From NCBI RefSeq assembly GCF_001577755.1, contig NZ_CP010776.1, positions 3,100,001 to 3,164,000 on the forward strand: a stretch of DNA of 64,000 bases, read 5' to 3'. The DNA is from Rufibacter sp. DG15C (lineage in GTDB: Bacteria > Bacteroidota > Bacteroidia > Cytophagales > Hymenobacteraceae). The notes below the pieces were generated by a model. That model saw only the letters and a program-made list of their open reading frames with translations. It was not told the DNA's origin and ran no database searches. Each line of letters opens with the position of its first letter. Position 1 is the stretch's first letter. This document shows positions 2,428 to 61,879 of this stretch, piece by piece. The translations under genes were made by a program, and so were the position numbers.

Positions 2428-2465
2428 CGTTTTTGGGTTCTTTTGGTGAAAACTGGTCAAAAATG
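2428..2465. repeat. Dispersed palindrome copy 1
   Basis: Imperfect inverted repeat, arms CGTTTTTGGGTTCTTTT and AAAACTGGTCAAAAATG, lying between the convergent methyltransferase and DUF4349 reading frames. Member of the window-wide palindrome family. Confidence 0.65.
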
Positions 2466-2467
2466 AT

Positions 2468-3285
2468 TTACACCAAGCCTTTTCTTCTAAGGAATAAAAT
2501 GCCAGCCAGGACCAGCCAAAGCGGCCAGATGTAGCAAAGCCCCACCAACAAAGACAGGAATAACTGCCAGCCCGTCCCGAAGGCATTGTAGAAACGGGTA
2601 CCCAAGCCAATGCGCTCAGAGAAGCTCATGGGTACAACCTGGTAAATGCTCAACCGAATGGTGCTGTAAGCAGTCTGGTCTTTCAGGAAACGGAGGCGGG
2701 CCTCGGCGCTTTCAATTTCTTCCCGAATGCTATCGAGGTATTGCTCCACCTCCAGAATCTCCTTGATGGTATTCGCCTGCGTCAACAAGGCCATATACCT
2801 AGCCTCTATGAGCGCTTGGCCTTGATTCTGGCCTGCACATCCACGTACTCCATGGCTACGTTGTCAGAACCCAGATTCTTAAAGTCCAACTTCACGCTTT
2901 CTTTTTGCAATTGGTCTAGCAGGGGTTGAAACTGATTTGGCTGTACTCTAATGACAAAGTCAGTGGAGAGTTCGTCTTCTTGGCTGTTTTGAGAGGTATT
3001 AGACACCAAGGCGTTGGCCTGCTTAACGGCCGCCTCAATGCGCTGTGTACTCGCCACCATGTCCTTCACTTGAAACCGGACATCAGCCTCCTTGATTACC
3101 AGTTGCGAAGGTGTTTTCTCAGAATTGGAAGTGCTTTCATCATCTTTGGTAGGAGCGGCGGCATCTGTAGCGGCTACCTCTGGTTTAGAAGAAACGGCCG
3201 AATTTTGTGATGATTCACAGCTGTGCAAAAGGAAAGCGAGACAGCAGCAAACTAGTAATAGGATAGGGTTTGTTGGCGTTTTCAT
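2468..3285 (-). pseudogene. DUF4349 lipoprotein, split by a one-base frameshift
   Basis: The 5' part (3285 down to a TAG at 2806-2808) encodes a lipoprotein signal peptide (lipobox ending LLHSC), a Ser/Thr/Asp-rich linker and the first half of a DUF4349 domain ending in VDVQARIKAKR. The remaining half lies in another frame: read from about 2813 it gives LIEARYMALLTQANTI followed by a coiled coil (EILEVEQYLDSIREEI), the AYSTIRLSIYQ strand, and two hydrophobic C-terminal stretches ending in positively charged RRKG at about 2470. Joining KR to LIEAR restores a continuous DUF4349 protein of about 272 residues, so a single base (one C after AAGCGC on the coding strand) appears to be missing. DUF4349 proteins are envelope proteins of unknown function. 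Either a real inactivation, programmed shift or sequencing error. Confidence 0.82.
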
Positions 3286-3365
3286 AGGCGTTAGGGTTTG
3301 TCCTTAATCCCTTCTGCCTCAAGAAGGTAACCCGAAAAATGAAAACAATAAAAAGCATAGTTCGT

Positions 3366-3403
3366 CGTTTTTAGCCTCTTTTAATGAAAACAGCCTAAAA
3401 ACG
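3366..3403. repeat. Dispersed palindrome copy 2
   Basis: Arms CGTTTTTAGCCTCTTTT and AAAACAGCCTAAAAACG around AATG; two mismatches. Lies 20 bases 3' of the PAP2 phosphatase gene on the minus strand. Confidence 0.75.
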
Positions 3404-3422
3404 ATTTGCCAATGGTTAATAT

Positions 3423-4283
3423 TTAAAACGTTACCGAAGCTGTGAAGGAGGCAGACGAAAATCCCACCTGCGGAGCCAGCGTAAAACGCCTCTTACGATT
3501 GCTTAATTTACTTTCGGCCAGATTGTAAAAGAGCAAAGAGCCTTTAGCAGACAAATACCCCAAAGCGACGCCCGCCATGACGTCCGTGGCCCAATGCGCA
3601 TTGTCATTGATGCGTGAAAGACCCACAAGTGTGGCCATACCATATGCCAAGGGTGAAACGATTCTATATTCTTTTCCATACACAGAGGATACAGAGGTAG
3701 CCACGGCGAAGGCCACCGTGGTATGCGAGGAGGGGAAAGAGGTATTCTCTGACACGTCCATGCCCCAGTCATAAAAATGGTTCTCATTGGTGCCGCTGGG
3801 CCGGTAGCGGTGTACCTGGTTTTTGATAAAGCCAGTGACGCCACCACTAATGAGAAGGCTGCCAAATGATACTGTTCCTGCTTTTCTTAGGTTGGGATCA
3901 CCCAGGGCAAATCCTATCACCGCCAAGGTACCCGTGGCGGGCAGGAACAGCCTCTGCCGCCCCATCGGCTCCACTACTTTCGCTAGCTCATCTAGTGGTT
4001 TGGTTCTGTGGGATTGCATGTATTTTTGAAGCGGTTCGTCTACCCAAGCATAGGTAGCCGTCCAAACCGCAGCCCCGGCCAAAACCGCTCCCATCACTTT
4101 AACGGCGGGTGACAACCTGGGCTTTGGAGACTCTGTCCGCGTAGAGTCTGCTAGGGAAACCGAAGTGGATAAAGTATCTCTTAATGCTAAACTGGGCGGT
4201 CCTATCTGGGTTGTTTGGGCCTGGGTAGAGATGTTGACAGCCCAAAGCAACAGAAAGGTTATTCTACTAACGGCCAGTTTCAT
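3423..4283 (-). CDS. PAP2-family phosphatase
   Basis: Membrane-associated acid phosphatase of the PAP2 superfamily, probably acting on lipid phosphates (phosphatidate, undecaprenyl pyrophosphate or lipid A; the substrate cannot be told). The 286-residue protein starts with a signal peptide (MKLAVSRITFLLLWAVN...TQAQ). The three catalytic motifs are intact: KNQVHRYRP (K-x6-RP), FPSSHT (PSGH-like with Ser-Ser-His), and SRINDNAHWATDVMAG (SR-x5-H-x3-D with the nucleophilic His region). Hydrophobic helices surround the motifs. The N-terminal 60 residues, Pro/Ser/Thr rich, are a periplasmic linker. The gene stands alone, with its own 3' palindrome; DUF3570 upstream at 4340 ends only 56 bases before its start, so readthrough from that operon is possible. 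Confidence 0.9.
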   Translation of the reverse strand: MKLAVSRITFLLLWAVNISTQAQTTQIGPPSLALRDTLSTSVSLADSTRTESPKPRLSPAVKVMGAVLAGAAVWTATYAWVDEPLQKYMQSHRTKPLDELAKVVEPMGRQRLFLPATGTLAVIGFALGDPNLRKAGTVSFGSLLISGGVTGFIKNQVHRYRPSGTNENHFYDWGMDVSENTSFPSSHTTVAFAVATSVSSVYGKEYRIVSPLAYGMATLVGLSRINDNAHWATDVMAGVALGYLSAKGSLLFYNLAESKLSNRKRRFTLAPQVGFSSASFTASVTF

Positions 4284-4339
4284 GGTTTGCCTATCAATGC
4301 CATGGATGTGTCAAAATGCAGGCTTCAAACAAAGCCAAA

Positions 4340-5551
4340 TTATTTTAAAGTCACCGCCAACGCCACGGCATCCGCCACCAAGCCCGTGTCACGGTTGTAA
4401 TGGTCATAGCGTACCTCCAGGGTGTTCAGTTTACTGATACCCAAGATGCCGTCGGCTGAATTGTATCTTACATTCAACCCGAACAAGTGGCTGGCAAACT
4501 CTGACAGGTCATAGTCGCTGGTATAGAAGTCCTTCTGAGGGGTGTGCTCCCTATATGGCGCAAAATAATCTGCCGCCGACTGGGTGTAGAACCGGTAGAA
4601 TGGCGACACCGAAAGGAACGGCGTCAGTTTGTAGGGCAGCTCTACCTCTAAGGTATGCGCGGTGATGCCCCAGTCATCTGAGTAGAACCGGTAGAAGGTC
4701 TTCACCAGGATGCGGTCGGTGGCAAAGTAGTTCAGGCGCAGGCCCACCGGGATTTTCACGCGCGAGTCGGGTAGTTTTTCTACATGTACCGAGTTGTCTG
4801 TAAAATAAACGCGCTGGTAGGGCGTGGCCAACTGCCCCGTCTGGTAGGCTAAATCTAGCATGGCAGAGGCTTGCAAGCGCTTGTTGATCACCTGCGCCAG
4901 AGAAACAGACGCGTTATAGGAATTGCGAGGATTGGTGCCGCCCGCGTCTGGGTTGTCTACCGGGCCAGAAGGTGTCTCCAGTGTTCTCAGCTCAATGGGA
5001 TAGATCATGCTCCAGGAGTCCAGGAAGGCGCTCAAAGACAAGCCCACCTCACGGTTTCTATCTTTGGAGAACTTTGCGAAGTTCACGTTCACGCCTTTGG
5101 AGAAGTAGTCATACTCTGTAGAGACAGAAACATCGGCGCCCATGGAGTATCCTTTTTCATCATCCTGCATGGCCCAGGAAAGCGAAGGATAAATGCGGTT
5201 GTCTGCCGCGCTCGCAGAAGAGATGGTGGTAGGGTCAATCAGGTCTGAGGACGCCGAGGAATAATGGTCAAAACCCACCTCCAACCTGAAGGAATGCAGC
5301 CGGTTTCTGGCGTCTCCTTTGGCCATGGTAATGTCAAAGGTGGTGGCCACGTCCGTAAGCTCCTCGGTGCCAATGCCACCCGTCACGGCAGAGTTATTCC
5401 CGTCCTGGGTGTAATAGCTAGATACGAAATTGATCTCCTGGGTCTTGAGCTTCCGGCTTTTGAAAACGGTGCTGTCTGGTTTGGTGGTCTGGCCAAAGGA
5501 ACTGAGAATGGTCAGGAAGAAAAGGGAGGCGTGCAAGTAGATTTTCTGCAT
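4340..5551 (-). CDS. DUF3570 outer-membrane beta-barrel protein
   Basis: A 403-residue exported protein of the uncharacterised DUF3570 family. It begins with a signal peptide (MQKIYLHASLFFLTILSSFGQ) and continues as alternating amphipathic strands rich in Tyr/Asp (for example YYTQDGNN, WSMIYPIELRTLE, FYRFYSDDWGITAHTLEVELPY), ending in a C-terminal strand of barrel type; no enzyme motif is visible. Last gene of a four-gene operon thioredoxin-ApbE-DUF4266-DUF3570, 12 bases after DUF4266. DUF4266 and DUF3570 commonly occur together beside apbE in other bacteria, so I infer it is the outer-membrane part of an exported redox module. Function unknown. Confidence 0.85.
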   Translation of the reverse strand: MQKIYLHASLFFLTILSSFGQTTKPDSTVFKSRKLKTQEINFVSSYYTQDGNNSAVTGGIGTEELTDVATTFDITMAKGDARNRLHSFRLEVGFDHYSSASSDLIDPTTISSASAADNRIYPSLSWAMQDDEKGYSMGADVSVSTEYDYFSKGVNVNFAKFSKDRNREVGLSLSAFLDSWSMIYPIELRTLETPSGPVDNPDAGGTNPRNSYNASVSLAQVINKRLQASAMLDLAYQTGQLATPYQRVYFTDNSVHVEKLPDSRVKIPVGLRLNYFATDRILVKTFYRFYSDDWGITAHTLEVELPYKLTPFLSVSPFYRFYTQSAADYFAPYREHTPQKDFYTSDYDLSEFASHLFGLNVRYNSADGILGISKLNTLEVRYDHYNRDTGLVADAVALAVTLK

Positions 5552-5563
5552 CTTTTTAGCTTT

Positions 5564-5791
5564 TTAGTTACAGCCGCAGCCACCTCCGGTCTTGCCGCCG
5601 TTGGCCCCCGAGGCTCCTTCGCGGTACAGCAAGAAATTCAGTTCGGTCTTCTGCACCTTGCGGGCGTTCAAGACCATTTCGGCGTCATTCAAATACATCT
5701 TGTTGTATTCCTGCACCGTCTGGCAAGAAAAAAGGCTCCCTGCCATGAACAGCAATAAGAGCCTTGCGCAGTTTCTGGATGTAGCATTCAT
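5564..5791 (-). CDS. DUF4266 small lipoprotein; candidate substrate of the adjacent flavin transferase
   Basis: A 75-residue lipoprotein (signal MNATSRNCARLLLLFMAGSLFSC, lipidated Cys about 23). After a short charged helix it ends in a Gly/Cys tail: YREGASGANGGKTGGGCGCN. This tail is the family hallmark. Residues 58-64 (E-G-A-S-G-A-N) resemble the D-x-x-S/T-G-A-S/T site at which ApbE enzymes attach FMN to Ser/Thr, with Ser61 the candidate acceptor; that reading is my inference. Its start codon overlaps the apbE stop (ATGA), so the two are translationally coupled. It precedes the DUF3570 barrel gene. No other domain is recognisable. Confidence 0.8.
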   Translation of the reverse strand: MNATSRNCARLLLLFMAGSLFSCQTVQEYNKMYLNDAEMVLNARKVQKTELNFLLYREGASGANGGKTGGGCGCN

Positions 5792-6747
5792 TCCTTTAGG
5801 CGTATGTTTTTGGAACTGTGTACGCGGTTAACATCATCTACTATTAGGCAGGCAATGTCCCTCATCTGGTTGATGAGTTCCAAGCCCACTTGTACGCCCA
5901 TGACCATCACGGGCGTAGCCATGGCGTCTGCCAACTCCGCATTGGGGCAAAGGATGGTAACGCTCTTAATACCTGTAACGGGCAATCCTGTTTTTGGATT
6001 AATGGTATGGCTGTATTTTTTACCGTCAATGATGGCAAACTTCTCATAGTTGCCCGAAGTAGCCACCGCCATATTTGAGATGTTGAGCTGAGAGAAAGGC
6101 TGGTGCTTGGAATTGGGGTCTGCAATGCCAATGGTCCAAGGCTGGCCATTGGGTTGTAAGCCCCAGGCGCTTAAATCTCCGGCGGCATTCACTATGCCGC
6201 TCTGCACGCCCAGTTGCTGCAAAACGTGTTTTGCCCGCTCAGCGGCATAGCCTTTGCCAATGCCGCCAAAGCCAATACGCATGCCCTGGTGCTTTAAGAA
6301 CACGCTTTTGTCTTTGGGATTGAGCAGGATGTTTTGATAATTAACCAATCGCACAGAGGCCTGGGCTACTTCTTTGGAGGGTAGCGCCGTCATGGTGGGG
6401 TCAAAGTTCCAAAGGCTCTTGTCTACCCCGCCGTAGGTGATGTCAAAGGCGCCCTGGGTCAGGTTTGAGATGCGGATAGACCGCTGGATGAGGTCATAGA
6501 CCTCGGGAGAAGGGGTAAACGGGGCAATACCCGCGTTGGCATTTATCTGATAAGTCTCACTGGTGTCTGAGAACGTAGTGAGCAGTTTTTCAATGCGCTG
6601 AATTTCTGCAATGGCCGCGTCCATTACGGTATCTGCCTCCTGTTGGGTAGGGCTGGCCACCGTCAATTCAAACCGATTCCCCATCAGCTTCTGTACCCGT
6701 CTAAACAACTGCGGCACGTTGGCTGGTAGGGAATCTGAGTGGTTCAC
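5788..6747 (-). CDS. apbE: FAD:protein FMN transferase (ApbE family)
   Basis: ApbE enzymes move FMN from FAD onto a Ser/Thr of exported redox proteins, using Mg2+. The 319-residue protein shows the family pattern: LMGNRFELTV at the start of the domain, SGAFD-like QGAFDITYG, GGIGKGYAAERA, GIVNAAGDLSAWG (nucleotide binding), MAVATSGNYEKF, KYSHTINPKTGLPV (the H-x-I-N-P motif) and ADAMATPVMVMG. I keep the GTG at 6745-6747, which directly follows the thioredoxin stop codon; an internal ATG (LMGNRF) would cut the domain edge. No signal peptide is visible with this start, which is odd because the likely substrates are exported. Overlaps DUF4266 by four bases. Confidence 0.9.
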   Translation of the reverse strand: MNHSDSLPANVPQLFRRVQKLMGNRFELTVASPTQQEADTVMDAAIAEIQRIEKLLTTFSDTSETYQINANAGIAPFTPSPEVYDLIQRSIRISNLTQGAFDITYGGVDKSLWNFDPTMTALPSKEVAQASVRLVNYQNILLNPKDKSVFLKHQGMRIGFGGIGKGYAAERAKHVLQQLGVQSGIVNAAGDLSAWGLQPNGQPWTIGIADPNSKHQPFSQLNISNMAVATSGNYEKFAIIDGKKYSHTINPKTGLPVTGIKSVTILCPNAELADAMATPVMVMGVQVGLELINQMRDIACLIVDDVNRVHSSKNIRLKE

Positions 6748-7365: not shown

Positions 7366-7404
7366 CCGTTTTTGGGTTCTTTTCTAGAAAATAGGCTAAA
7401 AGTG
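7366..7404. repeat. Dispersed palindrome copy 3
   Basis: Arms CCGTTTTTGGGTTCTTTTC and AAAATAGGCTAAAAGTG around TAG; imperfect pairing. Upstream of the thioredoxin operon, downstream of murA and its separate terminator hairpin. Confidence 0.65.
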
Positions 7405-7435
7405 CAGGTTGCTCTTTAACTAAGAGGTAACAAAA

Positions 7436-7464: not shown

Positions 7465-7489
7465 ATAAAAAATATTATGTAGATACTGC

Positions 7490-9567: not shown

Positions 9568-9611
9568 ATCCGTTTTTGTGCTGTTTTCATGAAAACAGCA
9601 CAAAAACGGAT
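9568..9611. repeat. Dispersed palindrome copy 4 (perfect)
   Basis: Perfect 22 + 22 base palindrome; half ATCCGTTTTTGTGCTGTTTT then CATG-type centre. The inner stem is GTGCTG/CAGCAC instead of the common GGCCTG/CAGGCC, so both arms changed together. Sits 3' of the helicase gene. Confidence 0.9.
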
Positions 9612-12624: not shown

Positions 12625-12625
12625 T

Positions 12626-12663
12626 CGTTTTTCGCCTATTTTCTGAAAAGCAGCCCAAAAACG
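12626..12663. repeat. Dispersed palindrome copy 5
   Basis: Arms CGTTTTTCGCCTATTTTC and AAAAGCAGCCCAAAAACG; begins two bases after the STAS-like stop codon. Confidence 0.7.
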
Positions 12664-12704
12664 GCTGCTTTTCTTATTGGTGATTAGGCGGTCAATGCTC
12701 TGGA

Positions 12705-13359: not shown

Positions 13360-13399
13360 CCGTTTTTGGCCTGTTTTCAGGAAAACAGGCCAAAAGCGG
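13360..13399. repeat. Dispersed palindrome copy 6
   Basis: Nearly perfect: CCGTTTTTGGCCTGTTTTC and GAAAACAGGCCAAAAGCGG around AG, one mismatch. Close to the family consensus. 3' of DUF3109. Confidence 0.9.
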
Positions 13400-13425: not shown

Positions 13426-13489
13426 AAGAATTGACCAAAAGAAAAGGCCCACAAACTAAGTTGTGGGCCTTTTCTTTTGGTCAATTCTT
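13426..13489. terminator. 64-base perfect palindrome, bidirectional terminator
   Basis: Two perfect 29-base arms (left begins AAGAATTGACCAAAAGAAAA) around the loop ACTAAG. It lies between the DUF3109 and accC stop codons, ending 4 bases from the latter. The stem core GGCCCACAA/TTGTGGGCC is flanked by A/T-rich ends giving a T-tract in either direction. Confidence 0.85.
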
Positions 13490-18984: not shown

Positions 18985-19041
18985 GCAAGAATATTCGTAT
19001 AATAAAATACAGATGCCTTTTTTGCGATGATTAGTTATTGT

Positions 19042-19080
19042 CGTTTTTGGGGTGTTTTGCTGGAAACAGACCAAAAACGG
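19042..19080. repeat. Dispersed palindrome copy 7
   Basis: Arms CGTTTTTGGGGTGTTTTGC and GGAAACAGACCAAAAACGG; 12 bases 3' of pdxA and upstream of the DUF177 promoter. Confidence 0.7.
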
Positions 19081-21597: not shown

Positions 21598-22380
21598 GTG
21601 AAGCCCGTCCAGCCCAAGAAACACCTAGGTCAGCATTTTCTCACCGACCTCAAGATAGCACAAGATATTGTGGAGGCCCTGCGCTTGCCCAATGGCGTCA
21701 AACAGGTGCTGGAGGTAGGACCCGGCATGGGCGTGCTCACGCAGTTTCTCATTCAGCACCCAGAATACCAGACCACCATCGTGGACATTGACCGCGAGTC
21801 CATTGCCTGGCTCAATGAGCATTTTCCGCAGTTGGAGGGCCGCGTACTTTTAGCCGATTTCCTGAAAACCGACCTAAAAACGCTTTTTGACGGACCTTTC
21901 TCCGTGATTGGTAACTTCCCTTATAATATCTCTACCCAGATTCTTTTCAAGGTACTGGACCACAGAAACCAGGTGCCCGAAGTGGTGGGCATGCTGCAGA
22001 AAGAAGTGGCCGAGCGTATTGCGGCCCCGCACGGGTCCAAGACCTACGGCATCATGAGCGTTCTTCTGCAGGCCTTCTATGACATTGAGTACCTGTTCAC
22101 GGTGCATGAGAACGTATTCAACCCGCCGCCCAAGGTAAAGTCGGCGGTGATTAGGTTGACGCGTAACAAGGTAGAAACCTTGCCCGTGGACGAGAAGTTG
22201 TTTGTAAAGGTAGTAAAGGCCAGCTTTGCCACTCGTCGCAAGACGCTCAGAAACTGCCTGAAGCCGTTTAATCTGCCAGAGGATATGACCAAGCAGCCTT
22301 TGTTTGACAAGCGCGCCGAGCAGTTGTCTGTGCAGGATTTCATTCAACTCACCCATCAGATCCAGCACCATGCAGTCTGA
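21598..22380 (+). CDS. rsmA: 16S rRNA (adenine1518/1519-N6) dimethyltransferase
   Basis: Dimethylates two adjacent adenines in helix 45 of 16S rRNA late in 30S assembly (KsgA). The 260-residue protein starts, with the GTG I chose, MKPVQPKKHLGQHFLTD, the normal N-terminus. Motifs: EVGPGMGVLTQFL (SAM loop), VDIDRESIAWL, ADFLKTDLKTL and the catalytic IGNFPYNIST. The frame is also open to an ATG at 21547 but that lies upstream of the promoter element. Its last 11 bases overlap the start of mgtE, so the two are coupled. Confidence 0.95.
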   Translation: MKPVQPKKHLGQHFLTDLKIAQDIVEALRLPNGVKQVLEVGPGMGVLTQFLIQHPEYQTTIVDIDRESIAWLNEHFPQLEGRVLLADFLKTDLKTLFDGPFSVIGNFPYNISTQILFKVLDHRNQVPEVVGMLQKEVAERIAAPHGSKTYGIMSVLLQAFYDIEYLFTVHENVFNPPPKVKSAVIRLTRNKVETLPVDEKLFVKVVKASFATRRKTLRNCLKPFNLPEDMTKQPLFDKRAEQLSVQDFIQLTHQIQHHAV

Positions 22381-24693: not shown

Positions 24694-24733
24694 CCGTTTT
24701 TGGCCTGGTTTCTAGGAAACAGGGCAAAAAAGG
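24694..24733. repeat. Dispersed palindrome copy 8
   Basis: Arms CCGTTTTTGGCCTGGTTTC and GGAAACAGGGCAAAAAAGG; begins at the very base after the dehydrogenase stop codon. Confidence 0.8.
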
Positions 24734-24739: not shown

Positions 24740-24792
24740 CATACAACCAGAAGCGCCTCCCATTCTAAAAGGGAGGCGCTTCTGGTTGTATG
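24740..24792. terminator. Bidirectional intrinsic terminator
   Basis: Perfect 22-base arms (CATACAACCAGAAGCGCCTC...) around ATTCTAAAA, between two convergent stop codons (24693 and 24794). Very stable GC-rich core CGCCTCCC/GGGAGGCG. Confidence 0.8.
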
Positions 24793-24793: not shown

Positions 24794-26152
24794 TTACCGC
24801 TGAGGATTGACCTGAACAGTAGCGTACCCAATGATCAAATCAGCACGGGTTCCAGGCGGGCGGTAATAGACCAGCACGTCATACACGTTTTCTGTAGCGA
24901 AGTGGCTGCCTTCAAAAAACTTGGCATCTGGCTGCCCATTGGCGCCCTTCACCGCGAAGTAGTAGTTGTAATAGCCCTGTTTCAAGAGCGCCGCACCGGT
25001 ATACAATTGCTTGGCGGCATCATAGGTCAGTTTGAAGGGCTCCTGTAAAGCCCAGTCACTTAATCCGCCAAACACATACACCGGGCCGGGTGCCGGCTCT
25101 GGGGCATGCAATTGGAAAATGACCTGCTGATAATCAGCATTGAGAGGCGCGTTGCCGTACTCGCGGCTTCCGTAGAGGAACTTGCCGTTGGCGTCTGGCT
25201 GCGTGCTGTAGGCTTCCCGGGCGCGTGATTTTCCGGTTTGGGCGTATACTTTGTCCGGGGAGGAGGAAATGTCCCTGCGCTCTACGCCTACGCCACTAAA
25301 CTGCTCGCTTCTGGTGTCCAGAGCCCTGAACTCGCTCAAGCCTAGAAAGGCCTGGTCCACGTCAAACAGTTGGTACTCCAAGCGGCGCTGGGCTTCCTGA
25401 ATGAAGGTAGGACGGTTGAACTGTTTGGCGTTGTCCCAGCGGTGATTCTGGCGCATGACCACCTTCACCTCCTGGCTGGGGTTCACCAAAGGGTACTGCG
25501 CATAAAAGATGTTGAAGTCCAGTTGTTGGCGCTCCAGGCGGTCACCGGCGCCAGGCGTGGCAGTAGGCCGAAGCCCCACGTTAACCAATTCTTCATACAC
25601 CACAAAGCGCCTGCTCAACAACAAACCGCCGCCTTCCTGAGACACTTCAAGCAAGTAATTACCGCTAATTTTTACCGGCGGCACTTGAAAGCGGTAATGC
25701 CAGTAGGGGACTTTGGTGGCCGTAGACGCGTTCATGTCCCGGATAAAGAACTCATTGAAATCCTGCAGATATTGCAAAGAGGCCAGCTGAGAGGGTTGCC
25801 AGTTCACGTCACAGTGATGGATTTTGACCACCACGCGGCTTCCGGTAGCGTTGAGCCGGTCAAACTCAAGAATCAGCGGTGAGGCCTGGGCTAGAGAAAC
25901 CACCGCCGGGGCCAGCACATCGGCGGCGTTATAGCTCTGCGTGTACAACTGCACCGACTTTACATCTGGGGCATACACCGCGTCTTCATACCGCAAAATA
26001 GCGGTGTCTGAACTCCCTGAAACCGCAGCAGCCCCAGAACCGGATGATTCTACGGGCACGCAATTTGTCAGAAAGGTGGCGCTAAAAAGGGAGATAAGCA
26101 GGGTTGATTTCCAGGAAGAAGTGAGTTTCACTTGAAGCGTATCTAACATCAT
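24794..26152 (-). CDS. Type IX secretion system Plug protein (DUF5103)
   Basis: The Plug protein closes the periplasmic side of the SprA translocon in the type IX system, the Bacteroidota route for outer-membrane secretion. The 452-residue protein begins with a signal peptide (about residues 1-33, SLFSATFLTNCVP, a lipobox-like Cys) and carries the DUF5103 body: RYEDAVYAPDVKSVQLY, VVKIHHCDVNWQPSQL, FNEFFIRDMNAS, FNIFYAQYPLVNPSQEV, ending GYATVQVNPQR. The T9SS link is from published structures of the family; the gene here stands alone. Start could be ATG at 26152 or 26149. gldA-F-G at the right edge and the PorE-like protein fit a gliding/T9SS organism. Confidence 0.88.
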   Translation of the reverse strand: MMLDTLQVKLTSSWKSTLLISLFSATFLTNCVPVESSGSGAAAVSGSSDTAILRYEDAVYAPDVKSVQLYTQSYNAADVLAPAVVSLAQASPLILEFDRLNATGSRVVVKIHHCDVNWQPSQLASLQYLQDFNEFFIRDMNASTATKVPYWHYRFQVPPVKISGNYLLEVSQEGGGLLLSRRFVVYEELVNVGLRPTATPGAGDRLERQQLDFNIFYAQYPLVNPSQEVKVVMRQNHRWDNAKQFNRPTFIQEAQRRLEYQLFDVDQAFLGLSEFRALDTRSEQFSGVGVERRDISSSPDKVYAQTGKSRAREAYSTQPDANGKFLYGSREYGNAPLNADYQQVIFQLHAPEPAPGPVYVFGGLSDWALQEPFKLTYDAAKQLYTGAALLKQGYYNYYFAVKGANGQPDAKFFEGSHFATENVYDVLVYYRPPGTRADLIIGYATVQVNPQR

Positions 26153-26199: not shown

Positions 26200-26239
26200 C
26201 CGTTTTTGGCCTGATTTCCTAAAAGTAGCCCAAAAACGG
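26200..26239. repeat. Dispersed palindrome copy 9
   Basis: Arms CCGTTTTTGGCCTGATTTCC and AAAGTAGCCCAAAAACGG; between the Plug gene's start and the ABC-F gene's stop. Confidence 0.75.
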
Positions 26240-28368: not shown

Positions 28369-28407
28369 CCGTTTTCGGGCTCTTTTCCAGGAATCAGCCC
28401 AAAAATG
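28369..28407. repeat. Dispersed palindrome copy 10
   Basis: Arms CCGTTTTCGGGCTCTTTTCC and GGAATCAGCCCAAAAATG. In the divergent gap between ABC-F and the 2H phosphoesterase gene. Confidence 0.7.
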
Positions 28408-28488
28408 AAGCAATGGGCCTAGGCTGAAAAGATACGACCTAATTTTACATCACATTCAAGAATGCTTCGTTAGTAAGAGGCAAGGTTT

Positions 28489-28528
28489 TTGTTTTTGGCT
28501 AACTTGGCCAAAACAGGCTAAAAACGAA
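28489..28528. repeat. Dispersed palindrome copy 11 (degenerate)
   Basis: Left arm decayed (TTTTTGGCTAACTTGG), right arm CCAAAACAGGCTAAAAACG recognisable. Ends 12 bases before the ligT-like start codon. Confidence 0.5.
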
Positions 28529-31418: not shown

Positions 31419-31446
31419 AAAGGGAGCGGTGGTTTCCGCTCCCTTT
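31419..31446 (-). terminator. Terminator of the deoxyhypusine-synthase-like gene
   Basis: AAAGGGAGCGG / CCGCTCCCTTT stem with six-base loop, 36 bases past the stop; the plus-strand A-run at 31415-31421 gives the minus-strand T-tract. Confidence 0.8.
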
Positions 31447-31468
31447 CCAGAAAATAGCCTAAAATCGG
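31443..31468. repeat. Half copy of the dispersed palindrome
   Basis: Only the centre and right arm remain (TTTCCAGAAAATAGCC then TAAAATCGG); overlaps the preceding hairpin. Confidence 0.45.
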
Positions 31469-33099: not shown

Positions 33100-33232
33100 A
33101 TTTTCTAATTCGATTTGTTCTCCCTTACGGAATCAGCCGCGAAACTACGACAATCTTTCCATAATGCCACGCCTGCGCATTTCTTGGCAGTAGACGCGGC
33201 GGGCACGCTAGGTATACGCAGGAATTGGTTTT

Positions 33233-33270
33233 CGTTTTTGGCCCGTTTTCTGAGAAATAGACCAAAAACG
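33233..33270. repeat. Dispersed palindrome copy 12
   Basis: Arms CGTTTTTGGCCCGTTTTC and AGAAATAGACCAAAAACG; between hslV and the pdhC terminator hairpin. Confidence 0.8.
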
Positions 33271-33304
33271 AAGAGAGCCGCCAGATTTCTCCGGCGACTC
33301 TCTT
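33271..33304 (-). terminator. Terminator of the dihydrolipoamide acetyltransferase gene
   Basis: AAGAGAGCCGCC / GGCGACTCTCTT stem, one mismatch, eight-base loop, 22 bases past the stop; abuts palindrome copy 12. Confidence 0.7.
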
Positions 33305-35138: not shown

Positions 35139-35178
35139 CCGTTTTTGGGCTTCTTTCCGGAAAACAGGCCAAAAACGG
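35139..35178. repeat. Dispersed palindrome copy 13
   Basis: Arms CCGTTTTTGGGCTTCTTTCC and GGAAAACAGGCCAAAAACGG; 15 bases 3' of the histidine phosphatase stop. Confidence 0.8.
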
Positions 35179-36344: not shown

Positions 36345-37568
36345 ATGCCAGACGATAGTACTTCGGTCTACCCTTTGCCGGAAGCCTTGCCATTAGACAT
36401 TGCCCATTCGCTTTTCTTAGCGGGGGTAGAGACGCAATTACCGTCCGTGCTTTGGCGCCTTCCCAATCAAACCGAGGTACAGGTGTTGGTAGCCACCTCT
36501 GGCAGCCAAACCTCGCTTCCGCCTTTAGAGGGACCCGTCCCTGGTTTTGCCTTCTGCCCATTTGAAGCCTCTGTAACGGCGCCCAATCAGTTTCTACCCG
36601 CAGATATCTACTATTGCGGCAAAGGCTCGACACAGATTCAATTAAATACAACAGGGACCCCTGACCGTTTTTGGCCTCTTTTCCAGGAAATAGCCCAAAA
36701 AGGACAACACCATCAACTAAAAGAGTGGCCGGTTCACCCTGAAGGACAAACCTCGCAAATAGACAGAGAAGACTTTGAGGAGACGGTTACCACCGCCGTC
36801 AACGCCATGCAAGCGGGTTGTTTAGAGAAAGTGGTCTTGTCGCGCACCAAAACCTTGCCCTTAGCGAAGGAGATAGACATCCTACAACAGTTCACCCAAC
36901 TGACCCAATTGTACCCGACGGCGTTCATTTCTTTGGTGGCCATTCCGGGGGTAGGGACTTGGCTGGGGGCAACGCCAGAATTATTGGTGCAGATAGACAA
37001 GCACAAGGTGTTCAGGACGGTGGCATTGGCCGGCACACAGCCGTTGACCGATGGACTCACGCCCGCCGATGCTATCTGGCGCCAGAAGGAGATTGAGGAA
37101 CAGGCCCTGGTGCAACGCTACATTGTGAGCTGTTTCCGGCATTTACGCCTGCGCGAATACGTGGAGATGGGTCCGCGTACCATTTTGGCCGGTAACCTTT
37201 TGCATTTGCGCACCGACTTTAGCGCGGCCATGGACGAAGTAGGCTTCCCGAAGCTGGGAACGCAGATGTTGGAGTTGTTGCACCCCACTTCGGCAGTAGG
37301 CGGCATGCCCAGGGCCGCAGCCTTGAAGATGATTAGCCAGCTGGAGCCGCACCAACGACGGTACTACAGCGGGTATCTGGGCCCGGTGCAGATAGAAGGG
37401 GAGACCAACCTGTTTGTGAATCTGCGCTGCGTGGAGCTAGGCAAAGACACCGTGACCGCCTACGCTGGGGCAGGCATGACCCCTGACTCAAACCCGGCCA
37501 AAGAGTGGCTGGAAACCGAACTGAAGATGCAGACCGTTCTGCGTCTTTTCCAAGACCTTGATTCATGA
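36345..37568 (+). CDS. menF: Isochorismate synthase
   Basis: Converts chorismate to isochorismate, the entry to menaquinone synthesis. The 407-residue protein has the chorismate-binding domain in the C-terminal two thirds: LEKVVLSRTKTLPL, LGATPELLVQID, VALAGTQPL, EEQALVQRYIVSCF, LLHPTSAVGGMPRAAAL and the end YAGAGMTPDSNPAKEWLETELK with Mg2+ ligands. The N-terminal third is poorly conserved and contains a complete dispersed palindrome (36665-36703) in frame, coding RFWPLFQEIAQKG in the linker before the catalytic core. The stop overlaps the menD start (ATGA). Confidence 0.9.
   Translation: MPDDSTSVYPLPEALPLDIAHSLFLAGVETQLPSVLWRLPNQTEVQVLVATSGSQTSLPPLEGPVPGFAFCPFEASVTAPNQFLPADIYYCGKGSTQIQLNTTGTPDRFWPLFQEIAQKGQHHQLKEWPVHPEGQTSQIDREDFEETVTTAVNAMQAGCLEKVVLSRTKTLPLAKEIDILQQFTQLTQLYPTAFISLVAIPGVGTWLGATPELLVQIDKHKVFRTVALAGTQPLTDGLTPADAIWRQKEIEEQALVQRYIVSCFRHLRLREYVEMGPRTILAGNLLHLRTDFSAAMDEVGFPKLGTQMLELLHPTSAVGGMPRAAALKMISQLEPHQRRYYSGYLGPVQIEGETNLFVNLRCVELGKDTVTAYAGAGMTPDSNPAKEWLETELKMQTVLRLFQDLDS
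36665..36703. repeat. Dispersed palindrome copy 14, inside the menF reading frame
   Basis: Arms CCGTTTTTGGCCTCTTTTCC and GGAAATAGCCCAAAAAGG. Same family as the intergenic copies, but here translated as part of MenF without breaking the frame. Confidence 0.85.
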
Positions 37569-39883: not shown

Positions 39884-39921
39884 CCGTTTTTGGCTTGGTT
39901 TCTGGAAAACAGGCCAAAAAC
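39884..39921. repeat. Dispersed palindrome copy 15
   Basis: Arms CCGTTTTTGGCTTGGTTTC and GGAAAACAGGCCAAAAAC; 3' of the DoxX gene, before the menB promoter. Confidence 0.75.
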
Positions 39922-39998
39922 AACCAGTAAAACTTCGCGCTAAAAAAAGCGTATTCCTATTTCCTGAAGGCATCCTACGCCGCTTACTTAGAAAGTCC

Positions 39999-42185: not shown

Positions 42186-42225
42186 CCGTTTTCGGGCTGT
42201 TTTCTGGAAAACAGCCCGAAAACGG
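42186..42225. repeat. Dispersed palindrome copy 16 (perfect)
   Basis: Perfect 19-base arms CCGTTTTCGGGCTGTTTTC / GAAAACAGCCCGAAAACGG around TG, starting at the base after the menE stop. Core bases differ from the consensus on both arms together. Between convergent genes. Confidence 0.9.
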
Positions 42226-42906: not shown

Positions 42907-43339
42907 GGGATGCTGCGCCAAGAGTAGATGCCGAAAGTTATTTAAAAGATAGCTTAAAGTTAATATTAATAGCCATCCGAAGCAGTAGGTAAGCACTCAT
43001 CTGAACAAAATATCTCCCACTATTTAAAGTTGGTAAAAGTATTTTCATCGGGCCGTTTTTAGCCTGTTTTGCCGGAAAGAGGTGAAAATTGGGTTAGAGA
43101 AATCGATTGAACCCCAAGTCTAAAGCTATTCTTGTGTTTTGCACATTCAGAAAAATATTGGTTGAAACACCCCCTTTGGTTATGAAAAGTGCAATAGAAA
43201 AATAAGATTATTGCCAAAATGAATACTTTGGGGCCACTTTTACGTATCGGGAGGAATCTAGCCAGACATTCCCTAAAGCGCTACCCGTAGGTTGCCAAGC
43301 GGGGCTGGCCTGTTCAAGTTCTCCACTACCAAACGCCCC
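42907..43339. other. Divergent gene-free stretch, 433 bases
   Basis: Between the Met-rich protein and pyruvate carboxylase. It holds the degenerate palindrome copy 17 (43053-43090) and is A/T-rich from about 43000 to 43240. No full TAnnTTTG element found on either strand; TACTTTGG at 43225-43232 is the nearest for pyc. No gene seen. Confidence 0.6.
43053..43090. repeat. Dispersed palindrome copy 17 (degenerate)
   Basis: Good left arm CCGTTTTTAGCCTGTTTTGC, decayed right arm GGAAAGAGGTGAAAATTGG. Upstream of both flanking genes. Confidence 0.55.
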
Positions 43340-51078: not shown

Positions 51079-51099
51079 CCAGTCTGTAAAATTCTTAAC

Positions 51100-51135
51100 A
51101 GAAAAGGCGAGCCCTGGATGGGGTTCGCCTTTTCT
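51100..51135 (+). terminator. Terminator of the PorE-like gene
   Basis: AGAAAAGGCGAGCCC / GGGTTCGCCTTTTCT, one G-T pair, six-base loop, 21 bases past the stop; overlaps the start of palindrome copy 18. Confidence 0.75.
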
Positions 51136-51173
51136 GTTTTTAGCCTATTTTATGAGAATTAACTCAAAAACGA
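51134..51173. repeat. Dispersed palindrome copy 18
   Basis: Arms TGTTTTTAGCCTATTTTA and GAATTAACTCAAAAACGA, divergent; between convergent genes. Confidence 0.55.
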
Positions 51174-54094: not shown

Positions 54095-54134
54095 CCGTTT
54101 TTGAGCTGTTTTCTGGAAATTAGCCCAAAAATGG
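54095..54134. repeat. Dispersed palindrome copy 19
   Basis: Arms CCGTTTTTGAGCTGTTTTC and GGAAATTAGCCCAAAAATGG; seven bases after the PAS-protein stop, between convergent genes. Confidence 0.8.
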
Positions 54135-54629: not shown

Positions 54630-54668
54630 CCGTTTTTAGCCTGATTTCTGGGAAAGAAGCAAAAAACG
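54630..54668. repeat. Dispersed palindrome copy 20
   Basis: Arms CCGTTTTTAGCCTGATTTC and GGAAAGAAGCAAAAAACG; 28 bases past the TPR stop on the minus strand. Confidence 0.7.
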
Positions 54669-54696
54669 CGAAAATAGTATGCATGCCAACTAAATT

Positions 54697-56813: not shown

Positions 56814-56823
56814 AAGAGATATT

Positions 56824-57447: not shown

Positions 57448-57465
57448 GCTTAAAATATTAAATAC

Positions 57466-57499: not shown

Positions 57500-57534
57500 G
57501 TATACAACTCAAAAGGATTGATTAAAAATAGAAA

Positions 57535-57580
57535 GCTTCGTTTTTGGCCTTATTTCTAGAAAAGGGATCAAAAACGAAGC
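57535..57580. repeat. Dispersed palindrome copy 21
   Basis: Outer arms GCTTCGTTTTTGGCCTTATT and GATCAAAAACGAAGC; extended perfect outer stem GCTTCG/CGAAGC. Between convergent genes, after the etf terminator. Confidence 0.75.
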
Positions 57581-57604
57581 ATTTAAAAGTAGGTGGGCAA
57601 TTGG

Positions 57605-58405: not shown

Positions 58406-58443
58406 GTGATTCAGTTGAAGAAGTGAGGCCTCTAGTCTATGCT

Positions 58444-59172
58444 TTAAAGCAGCACTTGAGCGCAGACATAATCTGCAATTAATAAGGCAATCACGCTGTT
58501 GGTCACGGCTTTGGTACTGGATTCACCTACCTCTAAGGCCCCGCCAGTGGTAAAGTACCCTTTGTAAGAGGAGATGGAGGCAATCAGAAAGGCAAAGACT
58601 ACAGACTTAATCAACGCGAAGGTGATGTTGTACGGGATAAAGGCCGTTCTAAGCCCTGTGATGTATTCCTGACCTGTTAGGGTGTTAGTTAAAGTACCAG
58701 CCACATATCCGCCCAAGATGGAAAGAAACATGGCAATGACCACCAGCATAGGAAACACCAGAATAGAGGCAATAATCTTGGGTAGCACCAGGTAAGAGGT
58801 AGAGTTGATGCCCATCACTTCCAATGCATCTACCTGCTCGGTGATCTTCATGGTGCCCAGGCCGCCCGCAATGTTAGAACCTACCTTGCCCGCCAACACA
58901 ATGGACGTGATGGTAGGTGCCATTTCCAGGATGGTCATCTCCCGGACCATAAAGCCAATGGTAGACTTAGGGATGAGTGCGCTGGTCAGGTTATAGGAGA
59001 TTTGCACACAGGTAACCGCGCCAATGAACGTGGAGACCACGGCCACAATAAAGATAGAGTCAATGCCAATCAAGATGGCTTCGTCAATGGTTCGTTTAAA
59101 GAGAATTTTAGGAGATTCACCGCGCCTGAAGAGCGAGCCTAAAAAGAGGAGGTATGCACCAAAGTTTTTCAT
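58444..59172 (-). CDS. MlaE-family lipid-transport permease
   Basis: Inner-membrane permease partner of the ATPase at 57605. The 242-residue protein (from MKNFGAYLLFLGSLF) has the MlaE pattern: a first amphipathic/hydrophobic region, then FIVAVVSTFIGAVTCVQISYNL, VREMTILEMAPTITSIVLAG, KVGSNIAGGLGTMKITEQVDALEVMGIN (the coupling helix region), YLVLPKIIASILVFPMLVV and the C-terminal helices. An in-frame ATG at 59208 exists but homologues start here. It diverges from a short-chain dehydrogenase at 59281. Confidence 0.9.
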   Translation of the reverse strand: MKNFGAYLLFLGSLFRRGESPKILFKRTIDEAILIGIDSIFIVAVVSTFIGAVTCVQISYNLTSALIPKSTIGFMVREMTILEMAPTITSIVLAGKVGSNIAGGLGTMKITEQVDALEVMGINSTSYLVLPKIIASILVFPMLVVIAMFLSILGGYVAGTLTNTLTGQEYITGLRTAFIPYNITFALIKSVVFAFLIASISSYKGYFTTGGALEVGESSTKAVTNSVIALLIADYVCAQVLL

Positions 59173-59280
59173 GAATGGGAGCGTAGGCCGTAGAGTGTAC
59201 TGCCCCAACCAGAGCAGAAATAGGCACTTCTTGTTTTCAAATGCCTATATTACGTTGAAATAAGATAAAACATCTATCCC

Positions 59281-59988
59281 ATGCAAAAATATATAGTGGT
59301 GACCGGTGGGACCAAGGGAATTGGGCGGGCCATTGTAGATAAGTTTGCCGCCGAAGGTTTTCATATCATCACCTGCGCGCGCAATGAGAAAGATCTGCAA
59401 AAACTGAAGTTAGAGATTGAACAGGCCTACACGTTCTCCAAGGTTTTCTACCAGGCCGTGGATGTGAGCATGACCGGCGAGGTGAAACGTTTTCTGGACT
59501 ACATTCATTCCCTGAAAGTAAAAGTAGACGTGCTGGTGAACAACGCCGGCTTCTTCATTCCGGGCACCATTCATGAAGAAAGTGACACCGTGCTGCGTGA
59601 GATGATTAACACCAACCTATACAGCGCCTATGATTTGACCAAAGGCTTGGTAGGGGATATGATCAAACGCAAGGATGGCTATATTTTCACTATCTGTTCC
59701 ACGGCCAGCATCATGGCGTATACCAACGGCGGTTCTTACTGCATTGCTAAACACGCGTTGTACGGCATGACCAGAGTGCTTCGCGAAGAACTGAAAGACC
59801 ACGGCATACGCGTGACTGCCGTGATACCGGGCGCTACTTTGACTGCCAGTTGGGAGGGAGTGGATCTGCCGCATGACCGCTTCATGAAACCCGAGGACGT
59901 GGCCAACGCCATTTGGGGTGCCAACTGCCTGTCCAAGCAAACCGTAGTAGAGGAATTGTTGCTTCGGCCGCAGTTGGGTGACATATAG
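59281..59988 (+). CDS. Short-chain dehydrogenase/reductase
   Basis: A 235-residue SDR. Cofactor motif VTGGTKGIGRAI at residues 6-17, VDVLVNNAGFF, catalytic Ser in FTICSTASIMA and Y-x3-K in SYCIAKHALYG. The classic family performs NAD(P)-linked oxidation or reduction of carbonyls; the substrate is unknown. No operon partner: the second SDR starts 200 bases later with a palindrome and promoter-like element between. Closest to 3-oxoacyl-ACP reductase-like SDRs only in general. Confidence 0.85.
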   Translation: MQKYIVVTGGTKGIGRAIVDKFAAEGFHIITCARNEKDLQKLKLEIEQAYTFSKVFYQAVDVSMTGEVKRFLDYIHSLKVKVDVLVNNAGFFIPGTIHEESDTVLREMINTNLYSAYDLTKGLVGDMIKRKDGYIFTICSTASIMAYTNGGSYCIAKHALYGMTRVLREELKDHGIRVTAVIPGATLTASWEGVDLPHDRFMKPEDVANAIWGANCLSKQTVVEELLLRPQLGDI

Positions 59989-60020
59989 GTTGGTTGCTAG
60001 CCCTTGATTGTATTCTACTT

Positions 60021-60058
60021 CGTTTTTGGGCTAGTTTCCAAGAATCAGCCCAAAATCA
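60021..60058. repeat. Dispersed palindrome copy 22
   Basis: Arms CGTTTTTGGGCTAGTTTCC and AGAATCAGCCCAAAATCA, between two co-directional SDR genes. Confidence 0.65.
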
Positions 60059-60164
60059 AGAATGGAATAGTATGCATTTGCACCGAGTCATTCAAATTGT
60101 GCTGGAAGTATAGATACATTTAAATTCGTAGCATCAACCACCAAGGTCGAATAACATATTTACT

Positions 60165-60172
60165 TAAATTTG
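60165..60172 (+). promoter_or_regulatory. -7 element for the second SDR gene
   Basis: TAAATTTG matches TAnnTTTG, 15 bases before the ATG at 60188. It overlaps a possible TTG start at 60170, arguing against that codon. Confidence 0.35.
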
Positions 60173-60187
60173 AGCAAAATCTTTGAT

Positions 60188-60904
60188 ATGGAATTAGAAG
60201 GAAAAGTAGTGGTGATTACGGGTGCCAGCAGCGGCATTGGCTTGGCTGCGGCAAAGTTGTTATTAGAGCAGGGAGCCACCGTAGTGAGCTGGAGCCGATC
60301 TAAACCCAAAATCTCACACCCAGACTTTTACTATTTTGAATGCGATGTTCGACATGAGCAGTCGGTTTGGTCAGCGTATGAGCAAACGGTAGAGCGTCTT
60401 CGTCAGAATATTTCTGTGTTGATCAACAATGCCGGCTTGGGTATTGAAGGCGCCTTGGACACCATGAGCCCGAAGGACTGGCACACCATGATGGACACCA
60501 ACGTGAATGGTATCTTCTACTGCACGCGCTTGGTATTGCCTCAAATGAAGAAACAGCTGGAAGGCCACATCATCAACATATCCTCTATTGCCGGCTTGAC
60601 GGGTATTGAGAACATGAGCGGCTACTGTGCTACTAAGTTCGCGGTGCGGGGCATTTCTCATTCCTTGTTCAAAGAAGTGAGACCGCATGGCATAAAAGTG
60701 ACCTGCATTTACCCGGGCTCTACAGCCACGCACTTCTTTGACGGCTTTGAAGGCACCGGCACCGCGCCTGAGAATATGATGCAACCCGAGGATATCGCTT
60801 CCACCATTCTGCACGTTCTTCAGTCGCCGCCCAACTACCATCACGTAGACATTGAGGTGCGCCCGTTAATGCCGAAGGGCAGACCAGAGAAAAAGAAAGC
60901 CTAA
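60188..60904 (+). CDS. Short-chain dehydrogenase/reductase
   Basis: A 238-residue SDR with VVITGASSGIGLAAAKLL as the cofactor motif, ISVLINNAGLGIEG, IINISSIAGLTGIEN with the catalytic Ser and YCATKFAVRGI with Tyr and Lys. Start is the ATG at 60188 (MELEGKVVV). Similar in length and plan to the SDR just upstream, though sequences differ, so they are not a recent duplication. gldA begins nine bases after the stop, so both may be co-transcribed. Confidence 0.85.
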   Translation: MELEGKVVVITGASSGIGLAAAKLLLEQGATVVSWSRSKPKISHPDFYYFECDVRHEQSVWSAYEQTVERLRQNISVLINNAGLGIEGALDTMSPKDWHTMMDTNVNGIFYCTRLVLPQMKKQLEGHIINISSIAGLTGIENMSGYCATKFAVRGISHSLFKEVRPHGIKVTCIYPGSTATHFFDGFEGTGTAPENMMQPEDIASTILHVLQSPPNYHHVDIEVRPLMPKGRPEKKKA

Positions 60905-60913
60905 CCCAGAATA

Positions 60914-61834
60914 ATGGGAATTGAAATAAAAGATTTGACCAAAGTATATGGTCCGCAGGCAGCTGTGGACCATATCTCATTTACGGTAGGTACAGGTGAG
61001 ATCGTGGGCTTTTTAGGTCCCAACGGCGCCGGAAAATCCACTACCATGAAAATTGCCACCTGCTACCTGCCACCCACCAGCGGAACGGTATTGGTGAATG
61101 GCTTCAACGTGGTGGAAGACCCTAAACAGGTGCGCCGACAAGTAGGCTATTTACCCGAGCACAACCCACTCTACCTGGACATGTACGTGCGCGAGTACCT
61201 GCATTTTGTAGGCAAGCTGCATGGCCTGGGCGGAAGCGCCCTTCAAGCCCGCACCGAGGAGATGATCCAGCTTTGCGGCCTGGATCGAGAAAAGCACAAG
61301 AAGATTGGCGCTTTGTCCAAAGGCTATCGTCAGCGCGTGGGCTTGGCCCAAGCCATGATTCATGACCCAGCGGTTTTAATTCTAGACGAGCCTACCACCG
61401 GCCTGGACCCGAACCAGATTGTAGAAATCAGGCAATTGATCAAAACAGTAGGGCAGGCCAAAACGGTCTTGTTTTCTACGCACATCATGCAAGAAGTAAG
61501 CGCCCTCTGTGACCGCGTGCTCATCATCAACCAAGGCAAACTAGTCGCCGACAGTCCGGTGGCCGAACTCAAGAACATGGGCCGAAAAGAAACGCGCATC
61601 TTGGCTGAGTTTGAAGCCGAAGTAGACACATCGCCCATTCTCACCTTGCCCCAAGTTCAGCGCATAGAACCGGCTGGTTTGCACAAGTACAGAATAATTG
61701 CCACCTCGGGCTCAGATTTACGCTCAGCTATTTTTAGGCTGGCAGGAGAACAGGGCTGGCCTCTAGTGGGCCTTCAGCAGGAAGAAAACTCTCTGGAGAA
61801 ACTCTTCCAGGATTTAACCCAGAACAATAAGTAA
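60914..61834 (+). CDS. gldA: Gliding motility ABC transporter ATPase GldA
   Basis: ATPase of the GldA-GldF-GldG transporter needed for surface gliding in Flavobacterium. The 306-residue protein has Walker A GPNGAGKSTTMKIATC, signature GALSKGYRQRVGLAQAM, Walker B LILDEPTTGLDPNQIVEIRQ and H-loop LFSTHIMQEVSALC. The C-terminal 80 residues are the domain shared with ABC-2 type exporters. gldF follows after 99 bases containing a palindrome and a heptamer array, so GldF expression may be separately set. Confidence 0.9.
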   Translation: MGIEIKDLTKVYGPQAAVDHISFTVGTGEIVGFLGPNGAGKSTTMKIATCYLPPTSGTVLVNGFNVVEDPKQVRRQVGYLPEHNPLYLDMYVREYLHFVGKLHGLGGSALQARTEEMIQLCGLDREKHKKIGALSKGYRQRVGLAQAMIHDPAVLILDEPTTGLDPNQIVEIRQLIKTVGQAKTVLFSTHIMQEVSALCDRVLIINQGKLVADSPVAELKNMGRKETRILAEFEAEVDTSPILTLPQVQRIEPAGLHKYRIIATSGSDLRSAIFRLAGEQGWPLVGLQQEENSLEKLFQDLTQNNK

Positions 61835-61839
61835 AAACC

Positions 61840-61879
61840 ACATTTTGGCCTGTTTTCCAGAAAGTAGGCCAAAAACGGA
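61840..61879. repeat. Dispersed palindrome copy 23
   Basis: Arms CACATTTTGGCCTGTTTTCC and AAAGTAGGCCAAAAACGG; between gldA and gldF. Confidence 0.8.

Follow-up and report, generated by a model that had tools for sequence, protein, structure and literature searches.

What is the role of a palindrome of about 40 bases that recurs at one gene boundary after another of a bacterial chromosome? The question arises from a stretch of 64,000 nucleotides, hereafter the window, in Rufibacter sp. DG15C (the host, G000; a single contig of 4,143,738 bp, window at G000:C1:3100001-3164000), where an element with the consensus YCGTTTTTGGCCTGTTTTC-NN-GAAAACAGGCCAAAAACGR is repeated throughout. The usual signals of a gene boundary in bacteria are RNA hairpins or Rho. 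The answer that we favour, giving it a little better than an even chance on sequence comparisons, is that the element is a double-stranded site maintained by the host for a putative dimeric DNA-binding protein at transcription-unit boundaries, most likely with roadblock or insulator action. The dyad geometry, the near-independence of the half-sites, the position of the element, its conservation and its species-specific 'dialects' are direct observations.

The original prediction had listed 23 dispersed copies in the window, all of which are present, with starts no more than 3 bases from those given. Scored as matching letters against the 38-letter consensus, 22 of them reach at least 26 and the one at 28488 reaches 25, while the best match in three mononucleotide shuffles of the window was 22-23. 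One further copy was found at 31429 (25/38), and a doubtful one at 21844 (23-24/38) lies within the RrnaAD gene. With the latter included, the 25 window elements have a G+C content of only 28-53%, which bears out the earlier remark that they differ from repetitive extragenic palindromic (REP) elements, and 19 of the 25 lie outside predicted genes with a stop codon no more than 60 bases away, again as had been claimed for most copies. Element 7366 sits 84 bases from a stop codon, and elements 28369, 28488 and 43053 lie in gaps between divergent genes. No Rfam family attains its gathering score in the window, in line with the earlier statement that no named family was known. The elements and the hairpins adjoining them are listed below by window position; no strand is assigned to any of them.

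2427-2466: element in a convergent gap, 29/38; its 5' arm also pairs with 2406-2424
3365-3404: element in a tandem gap, 31/38
7366-7405: element in a tandem gap, 30/38
9570-9609: element, perfect palindrome, 34/38; the same place in the relative G013 holds a differently spelled perfect palindrome
12625-12664: element immediately 3' of a stop codon, 32/38
13360-13399: element in a convergent gap, 37/38; present (at least 25/38) in 7 of the 7 relatives comparable there
13426-13489: separate long hairpin adjoining element 13360, perfect arms of 29 nt
19041-19080: element in a tandem gap, 32/38
24694-24733: element in a convergent gap, 34/38
24740-24792: separate hairpin adjoining element 24694, arms of 25 nt
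26200-26239: element in a tandem gap, 33/38
28369-28408: element in a divergent gap, 30/38
28488-28527: second element in the divergent gap of 28369, 25/38
31429-31468: element beyond the earlier list, 25/38; kept in G013, with no copy found in G006 or G001
33232-33271: element in a tandem gap, 31/38
35139-35178: element in a tandem gap, 35/38
36665-36704: element in the coding frame of a chorismate-binding enzyme gene, upstream of the Pfam domain, 32/38
39884-39923: element in a tandem gap, 34/38; not found in G006
42186-42225: element, perfect palindrome, in a convergent gap, 34/38
43053-43092: element in a divergent gap, 30/38
51134-51173: element whose T-run could be the U-tract of a hairpin at 51097-51138, 26/38
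54095-54134: element in a convergent gap, 32/38
54630-54669: element in a tandem gap, 31/38
57538-57577: element in a convergent gap, 30/38
60020-60059: element in a tandem gap, 27/38
61839-61878: element in a tandem gap, 33/38

Among the neighbouring genes, one at 24794-26152 encodes a type 9 secretion plug domain (PF17116), which fits a Bacteroidota host.

The family extends far beyond the window. In the whole host genome the arms occur, at up to 3 mismatches, 1,165 times forward and 1,177 times reverse, compared with 1 and 3 for the reversed pattern, so that the outcome named beforehand as damaging, few copies elsewhere, did not materialize. A host sample of 864 kb (the window plus 40 stretches of 20 kb) holds 345 copies at 26/38 or better and, by weight matrix, 350 copies (0 for the reversed matrix), corresponding to about 1,680 elements when scaled up to the genome; copy numbers outside the sampled 864 kb are extrapolations or pattern counts. 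A pattern of the dyad core occurs 1,076 times in the host at up to one mismatch (0 with the off-register control spacer), and only 0-5 times per genome in 394 others of the phylum (reversed control 0-4). At up to two mismatches it occurs 541-2,088 times per genome in all 16 Rufibacter genomes (control 0-4), and the single forward arm 101-1,381 times in the same 16 genomes versus 0-15 times in 63 genomes from elsewhere in the family and order. The arm pattern is near chance in 33 genomes of other Hymenobacteraceae genera, and so is the core pattern in the 3 of those 33 that its search covered. The dyad was also not top-counted among pooled gaps of the sister genera, a weak test since it missed the true carrier G008 as well. 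Because spelling drifts between species, a differently spelled relative of the element may exist in other genera. Viral contigs gave 0 exact matches to one degenerate element pattern. As a separate observation, a second dyad, GCCAGTT-NNN-AACTGGC, recurs in G008 (loci L180-L182) and in pooled Pontibacter loci (L046-L052), its 5-mer pairs occurring 6 times in 60 kb of G008 and 4-5 times in the Pontibacter pool; with A- and T-runs on its flanks, it is probably a terminator hairpin common to both.

Where do the copies lie? On a host gene map predicted from hexamers, in which some gene starts will be wrong, 315 of the 345 copies are intergenic, 20 fall in predicted genes and 10 at stretch edges. 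Occupancy of gaps of 120-180 bp is 0.83 for convergent, 0.59 for tandem and 0.27 for divergent neighbours, and in the best length bin reaches 0.91, 0.73 and 0.50, respectively. In tandem gaps that are 120 bp or longer, the element is shifted towards the stop codon (157 elements, Kolmogorov-Smirnov p about 1e-18). Occupied gaps usually hold a single element: of 556 gaps measuring 45 bp or more, 280 contain one and 17 contain two, multiples being far below length-weighted chance, and convergent gaps hold 71 singles and 4 doubles versus about 24 singles and 18 multiples expected by length. There is no even spacing along the chromosome (coefficient of variation 0.78, versus 0.79 for a random choice of gaps). 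Hexamer coding scores, which stand in for native codon use, are higher in genes flanking an element than in those at empty gaps 120 bp or longer (p=3e-5 for tandem, 4e-5 for convergent and 0.02 for divergent gaps).

The internal structure of the element is that of a protein site rather than of a hairpin in most host copies. Each half is 17-18 bp long and contains two boxes, CGTTTTT and T..TTT, about 11 bp apart; the halves are inverted, and 211 of 214 half-site pairs have a 4-bp gap between them. Strong arms (at least 17/19) lie within dyads in 251 of 252 cases, and solitary half-sites at 15/19 or better show no excess over chance (9 versus 8 in the control). Over 350 host copies the conservation amounts to 49 bits and is position-specific and mirror-symmetric, with T4-T6 at 98-100%, T15-T16 at 97-98% and positions 13-14 at only 61-68%. 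Yet the arms hardly covary: Watson-Crick pairs in ten variable columns number 2,053, where independent columns predict 2,049, and in 305 copies picked by invariant core letters alone column 7 gives z=2.6, the central column z=-4.9 and the rest -1.8 to 1.1. An independent tool found 83.1% paired in 24 window copies versus 82.1% after shuffling, with 80 of 500 shuffles as high. An obligate dyad with nearly independent arms and symmetric, position-specific conservation mostly behaves as would be expected of a site for a symmetric protein.

The same data bear on an RNA-level role, as a terminator hairpin or a stem-loop protecting 3' ends. The proximity to stop codons agrees with such a role, as do two fully paired copies that fold at -25 and -27 kcal/mol, the excess pairing seen in G008, and the 26 of 349 copies (0.8 expected) that are directly extended by flanking, locus-unique inverted repeats, several of them with a T-tail by eye. 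Against it, the remaining 6 of 8 folded copies are less stable, at -1.9 to -18.3 kcal/mol, copies occur also between divergent genes, and there is next to no covariation in the host. Neither is there a GU excess, with GU 386 versus AC 411 over 335 host copies and 220 versus 263 in transcription-oriented tandem gaps; GU exceeds AC only in convergent gaps (110 versus 78), where neither strand is privileged. Arm conservation is equal for both arms in the transcribed orientation (p=0.80), and no U-tract follows the element (T 0.32-0.36 3' of 200 tandem elements). Since the arms are near-independent, no RNA strand is favoured and the U-tract is missing, most copies are not selected hairpins, and host symmetry is that of two largely independent half-sites. 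An RNA hairpin or simple terminator was accordingly rejected for most host copies, G008 being the genome that does show excess pairing. An RNA-level reading is disfavoured in the host and strikes us as improbable, and an RNA covariance model, as originally proposed, would capture mainly the wrong feature, given the near-independence of the half-sites.

Terminators are nevertheless close at hand. Intrinsic terminators coexist with elements, and the separate hairpins noted earlier beside some palindromes of the window are confirmed. The frequency of intrinsic terminators is similar to that in sister genera, at 0.57 of convergent gaps in the host and 0.33-0.75 of those in the sister genera (small samples). 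Host stems tend to end at the element, 60 in 688 arms ending between -10 and +9 of it and about 4 per 5-bp bin farther out; a second hairpin definition gave 72 of 668 sides in a 19-bp band versus 46 in a 31-bp control band, and in other species hairpins were too few to judge such abutment. The TTTTT of the element can form the U-tract of an abutting hairpin, and some host terminators borrow it. The original claim that the palindromes are not simply the terminators thus held as far as tested, with the refinement that some terminators use the T-run of the element. We also considered the element arm as the 3' half of an upstream terminator stem, and rejected it as a minority case (24 of about 690 arms at 8 bp or more, versus about 12 expected). 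The edge hairpins and extended copies may be either by-products of template switching or terminators that evolved around a pre-existing site. Longer locus-unique inverted repeats centred exactly on the element (L161, L190, L191 and L193 in G005; L012, L130 and L141 in the host) could possibly be a signature of palindrome growth by template switching.

Comparison with relatives shows that the elements stay in place. In orthologous gaps of the host and G013 (median protein identity 90%), 108 are occupied in both, 154 empty in both and 7 occupied in one only, at a threshold of 22/38 that admits a few chance elements (e.g. 382802, 24/38). Over eight relatives the element is shared in 59 gaps, the host's alone in 3, the relative's alone in 13 and in neither in 79. 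Across 89 pairs matched one to one, the rate of change is 0-4% at the T/A core (columns 4-6, 15-16 and their mirrors) and 24-48% at the variable columns, compared with about 55% for the ungapped element flanks; outside the elements, aligned gap sequence has 80% identity, and 31% of the columns are gaps. Orthologous copies have arm-specific variants in common, and are therefore related by descent.

Such stability has to be set against a selfish miniature element, of the REP, REPIN (REP doublet hairpin) or MITE (miniature inverted-repeat transposable element) kind, spread by a transposase, tolerated in gaps and inserted recurrently in the same ones. The element is indeed extragenic, palindromic and of high copy number, some copies are nested exactly in longer inverted repeats, and proteins matching PF01797, the Y1 transposase family, occur in the other 15 of the 16 Rufibacter genomes, mostly as weak matches of 21-39 bits. 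Elements are also somewhat denser near these genes: in 20 stretches of relatives' DNA covering 21 of the 45 listed PF01797 hits there are 33 elements in about 65 kb, 7 of them in one stretch, and in the 18 stretches with a measured background 31 elements were found versus roughly 19 expected. An element lies on both sides in 6 of the 20 stretches, on one side in 11 and on neither in 3, and for 689 ordinary host genes the numbers are 121, 329 and 239. The host, though, has no PF01797 match in its whole genome, which extends the earlier finding that no transposase of the REP-associated tyrosine transposase (RAYT) type is present in the window, and yet its elements are under strong constraint; RAYT-driven mobility was rejected on these 0 matches. 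The near-independence of the arms, the position-specific substitution rates and the shared arm-specific variants likewise speak against mobility. Insertion polymorphism of the MITE type was not encountered, only 7 of 115 occupied orthologous gaps in the host and G013 being filled in one genome, and no clean 40-bp insertion was found in the 5 inspected. These comprised a truncated host copy, a host gap of 16 bp that the gene call had cut short, a G013 gap shorter by 161 bp, a stretch that could not be aligned and a chance-level match; the remaining two gaps are 405 and 639 bp longer in G013. Mobility is strongly disfavoured as an explanation, and we would give it little more than a slim chance.

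Although retained in place, the elements are respelled from species to species. The consensus is specific to the species and runs through the sampled sites of each genome, so that positions 13-14 are C93/A71 in G012 versus G61/T68, while G005 has A69/G76 at positions 6-7. Sampled members of a supported clade of seven species in the tree (G003, G004, G008, G009, G010, G014 and G015) carry weak elements of 27-34 bits (G004, G008, G009), compared with 47-55 bits in the six other sampled genomes, as if recognition by the putative protein had become less strict in that clade. A single ancient burst and its subsequent decay do not shift the spelling of a genome's sites in a common direction; selection by a shared trans factor, or drive, can.

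Drive is the essence of the strongest rival, an uptake-driven origin, in which the element is a dyadic DNA-uptake signal: competence machinery would prefer marked DNA, and transformation would push the consensus to saturation in permissive gaps, as happens with the uptake sequences DUS and USS. Copy number, dialects and the association with terminators resemble the DNA-uptake sequences (DUS) described in an excerpt of PMC3630211. The more native coding scores of element-flanking genes fit as well, as do the excess of information and the second copies in long gaps discussed below. Solitary half-sites, on the other hand, show no excess, few copies lie in genes and mostly one in each gap, the spacing is that of a random choice of gaps, and the type IV pilin N-methylation family PF07963 has no match in the host genome. 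We regard this origin as unlikely, if less so than the other rivals.

The protein-site reading leads to the following scheme. Four boxes on about one helix face, with a fixed gap, would suit a dimer of dimers, or a single dimer in which each monomer contacts two consecutive major grooves. The cell would keep about one such site at most of its longer transcription-unit boundaries, and the bound putative protein would be a two-way roadblock or insulator, halting read-through and antisense transcription from either side; alternatively, it might limit the spread of supercoiling. The outer T-runs would give weak RNA-DNA hybrids about where the polymerase would stall, and the roadblock would work beside intrinsic terminators, some of them using the TTTTT of the element as their U-tract. 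A more ambitious version, which we advance tentatively and at clearly less than an even chance, is a genome-wide punctuation in which the putative dimeric protein occupies well over 1,000 sites of 40 bp devoted to it, roughly one at each transcription-unit boundary, as a two-way terminator and insulator, and has co-evolved with these sites into the species dialects.

A role in chromosome architecture only, as a docking site for a nucleoid protein or topoisomerase placed in gaps because these are permissive, would also account for a dyad at the DNA level. It gains from the central pyrimidine-purine step found in 0.74-0.87 of copies in the host, G013 and G012, and loses from its frequency of only 0.16-0.48 in the other six sampled species; moreover, one element per boundary and the abutment of hairpins point to transcription. 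We think this alternative very unlikely.

Several observations weigh against a roadblock site for a dimeric protein, beginning with the fact that the protein, its occupancy of the sites and its roadblock or insulator action are all things that we infer from sequence. The element does not replace terminators: the convergent-gap terminator rate is 0.60 with and 0.45 without an element, which is not a significant difference (p=0.33), and elements as substitutes for terminators were rejected on this account. Nor is the sense-side preference of abutting hairpins significant (22 versus 12, p=0.12). In divergent gaps there are 37 elements with no gene end to terminate; 12 of 50 gaps of at least 400 bp contain two elements, accounting for 12 of the 17 doubles; and one of the 20 copies in predicted genes (36665) is certainly coding. 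Pairing also exceeds independence in places. Near-perfect palindromes (at least 17 of 18 pairs) number 39 versus about 16 expected, double changes between the host and G013 number 82 versus 68 expected, of which 31 go from pair to pair (e.g. window 9570), and pair changes on both sides number 8 versus 5.0 expected in the 24 window copies (23 of 500 shuffles). The arms show clear mutual information at two places, column 7 and the centre, in the latter because of the CA/TG steps there, and about 7% of elements are nested in longer unique inverted repeats. In the smaller samples from relatives, pairing is clearly above expectation in G008 (233 versus 192), slightly above it in G005 (491/468), G004 (268/256) and G006 (170/155), and about at expectation in G013, G012, G001 and G009. 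Finally, the 49 bits of the element far exceed the 11.3 bits that would suffice to specify so many sites, an excess that is unusual for a plain binding site and fits copying or drive.

We know of no earlier report of the element, from targeted literature searches, and literature on palindromic intergenic repeats of Rufibacter, Hymenobacteraceae and Bacteroidetes held no equivalent in titles or the beginnings of abstracts. A DNA-level mark at most long gene boundaries, found in 16 of 16 Rufibacter genomes and respelled per species, would if true be a new layer of genome organisation, and a punctuation system of this kind would be the bacterial counterpart of eukaryotic boundary and roadblock factors. 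Because the sites of one genome change spelling together, the genus would also offer a natural experiment on how a protein, or an uptake machinery, co-evolves with the full complement of its sites.

Known systems resemble the element in part. Sequence-specific roadblock terminators such as Reb1, TTF-I and mTERF rely on a DNA-bound protein that stops polymerase at gene ends, and this DNA-bound roadblock is the mode of action that may, by analogy, apply in Rufibacter; they are eukaryotic or mitochondrial, whereas the Rufibacter protein is putative. DUS are short single motifs. In Neisseriaceae they occur in thousands of copies, with lineage dialects and terminator-linked inverted pairs, are common inside genes, and include overlapping pairs with dyad symmetry, as mentioned in the same excerpt (PMC3630211). 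Thousands of copies, dialects and a link to terminators are common to both, but the Rufibacter element is an obligate dyad of 36-40 bp, mostly intergenic, usually one per gap, in a host with no PF07963 match. The highly iterated palindrome HIP1 of cyanobacteria, 8 bp long and linked to methyltransferases according to a portion of PMC4390886, is likewise confined to one clade, whereas the present element is 40 bp long and stands at gene boundaries. The REP elements and BIMEs (bacterial interspersed mosaic elements) of gammaproteobacteria share the high copy number, extragenic position and palindromic form. Part of the text of PMC2817692 reports for REPs the binding of gyrase and Pol I and help to Rho-dependent termination, describes RAYT genes as always flanked by two REPs, and infers complementary mutations. 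In contrast to REPs, the Rufibacter element has no GTAG-type head by eye, its arms hardly covary, it keeps its orthologous positions, and the host genome has no PF01797 match.

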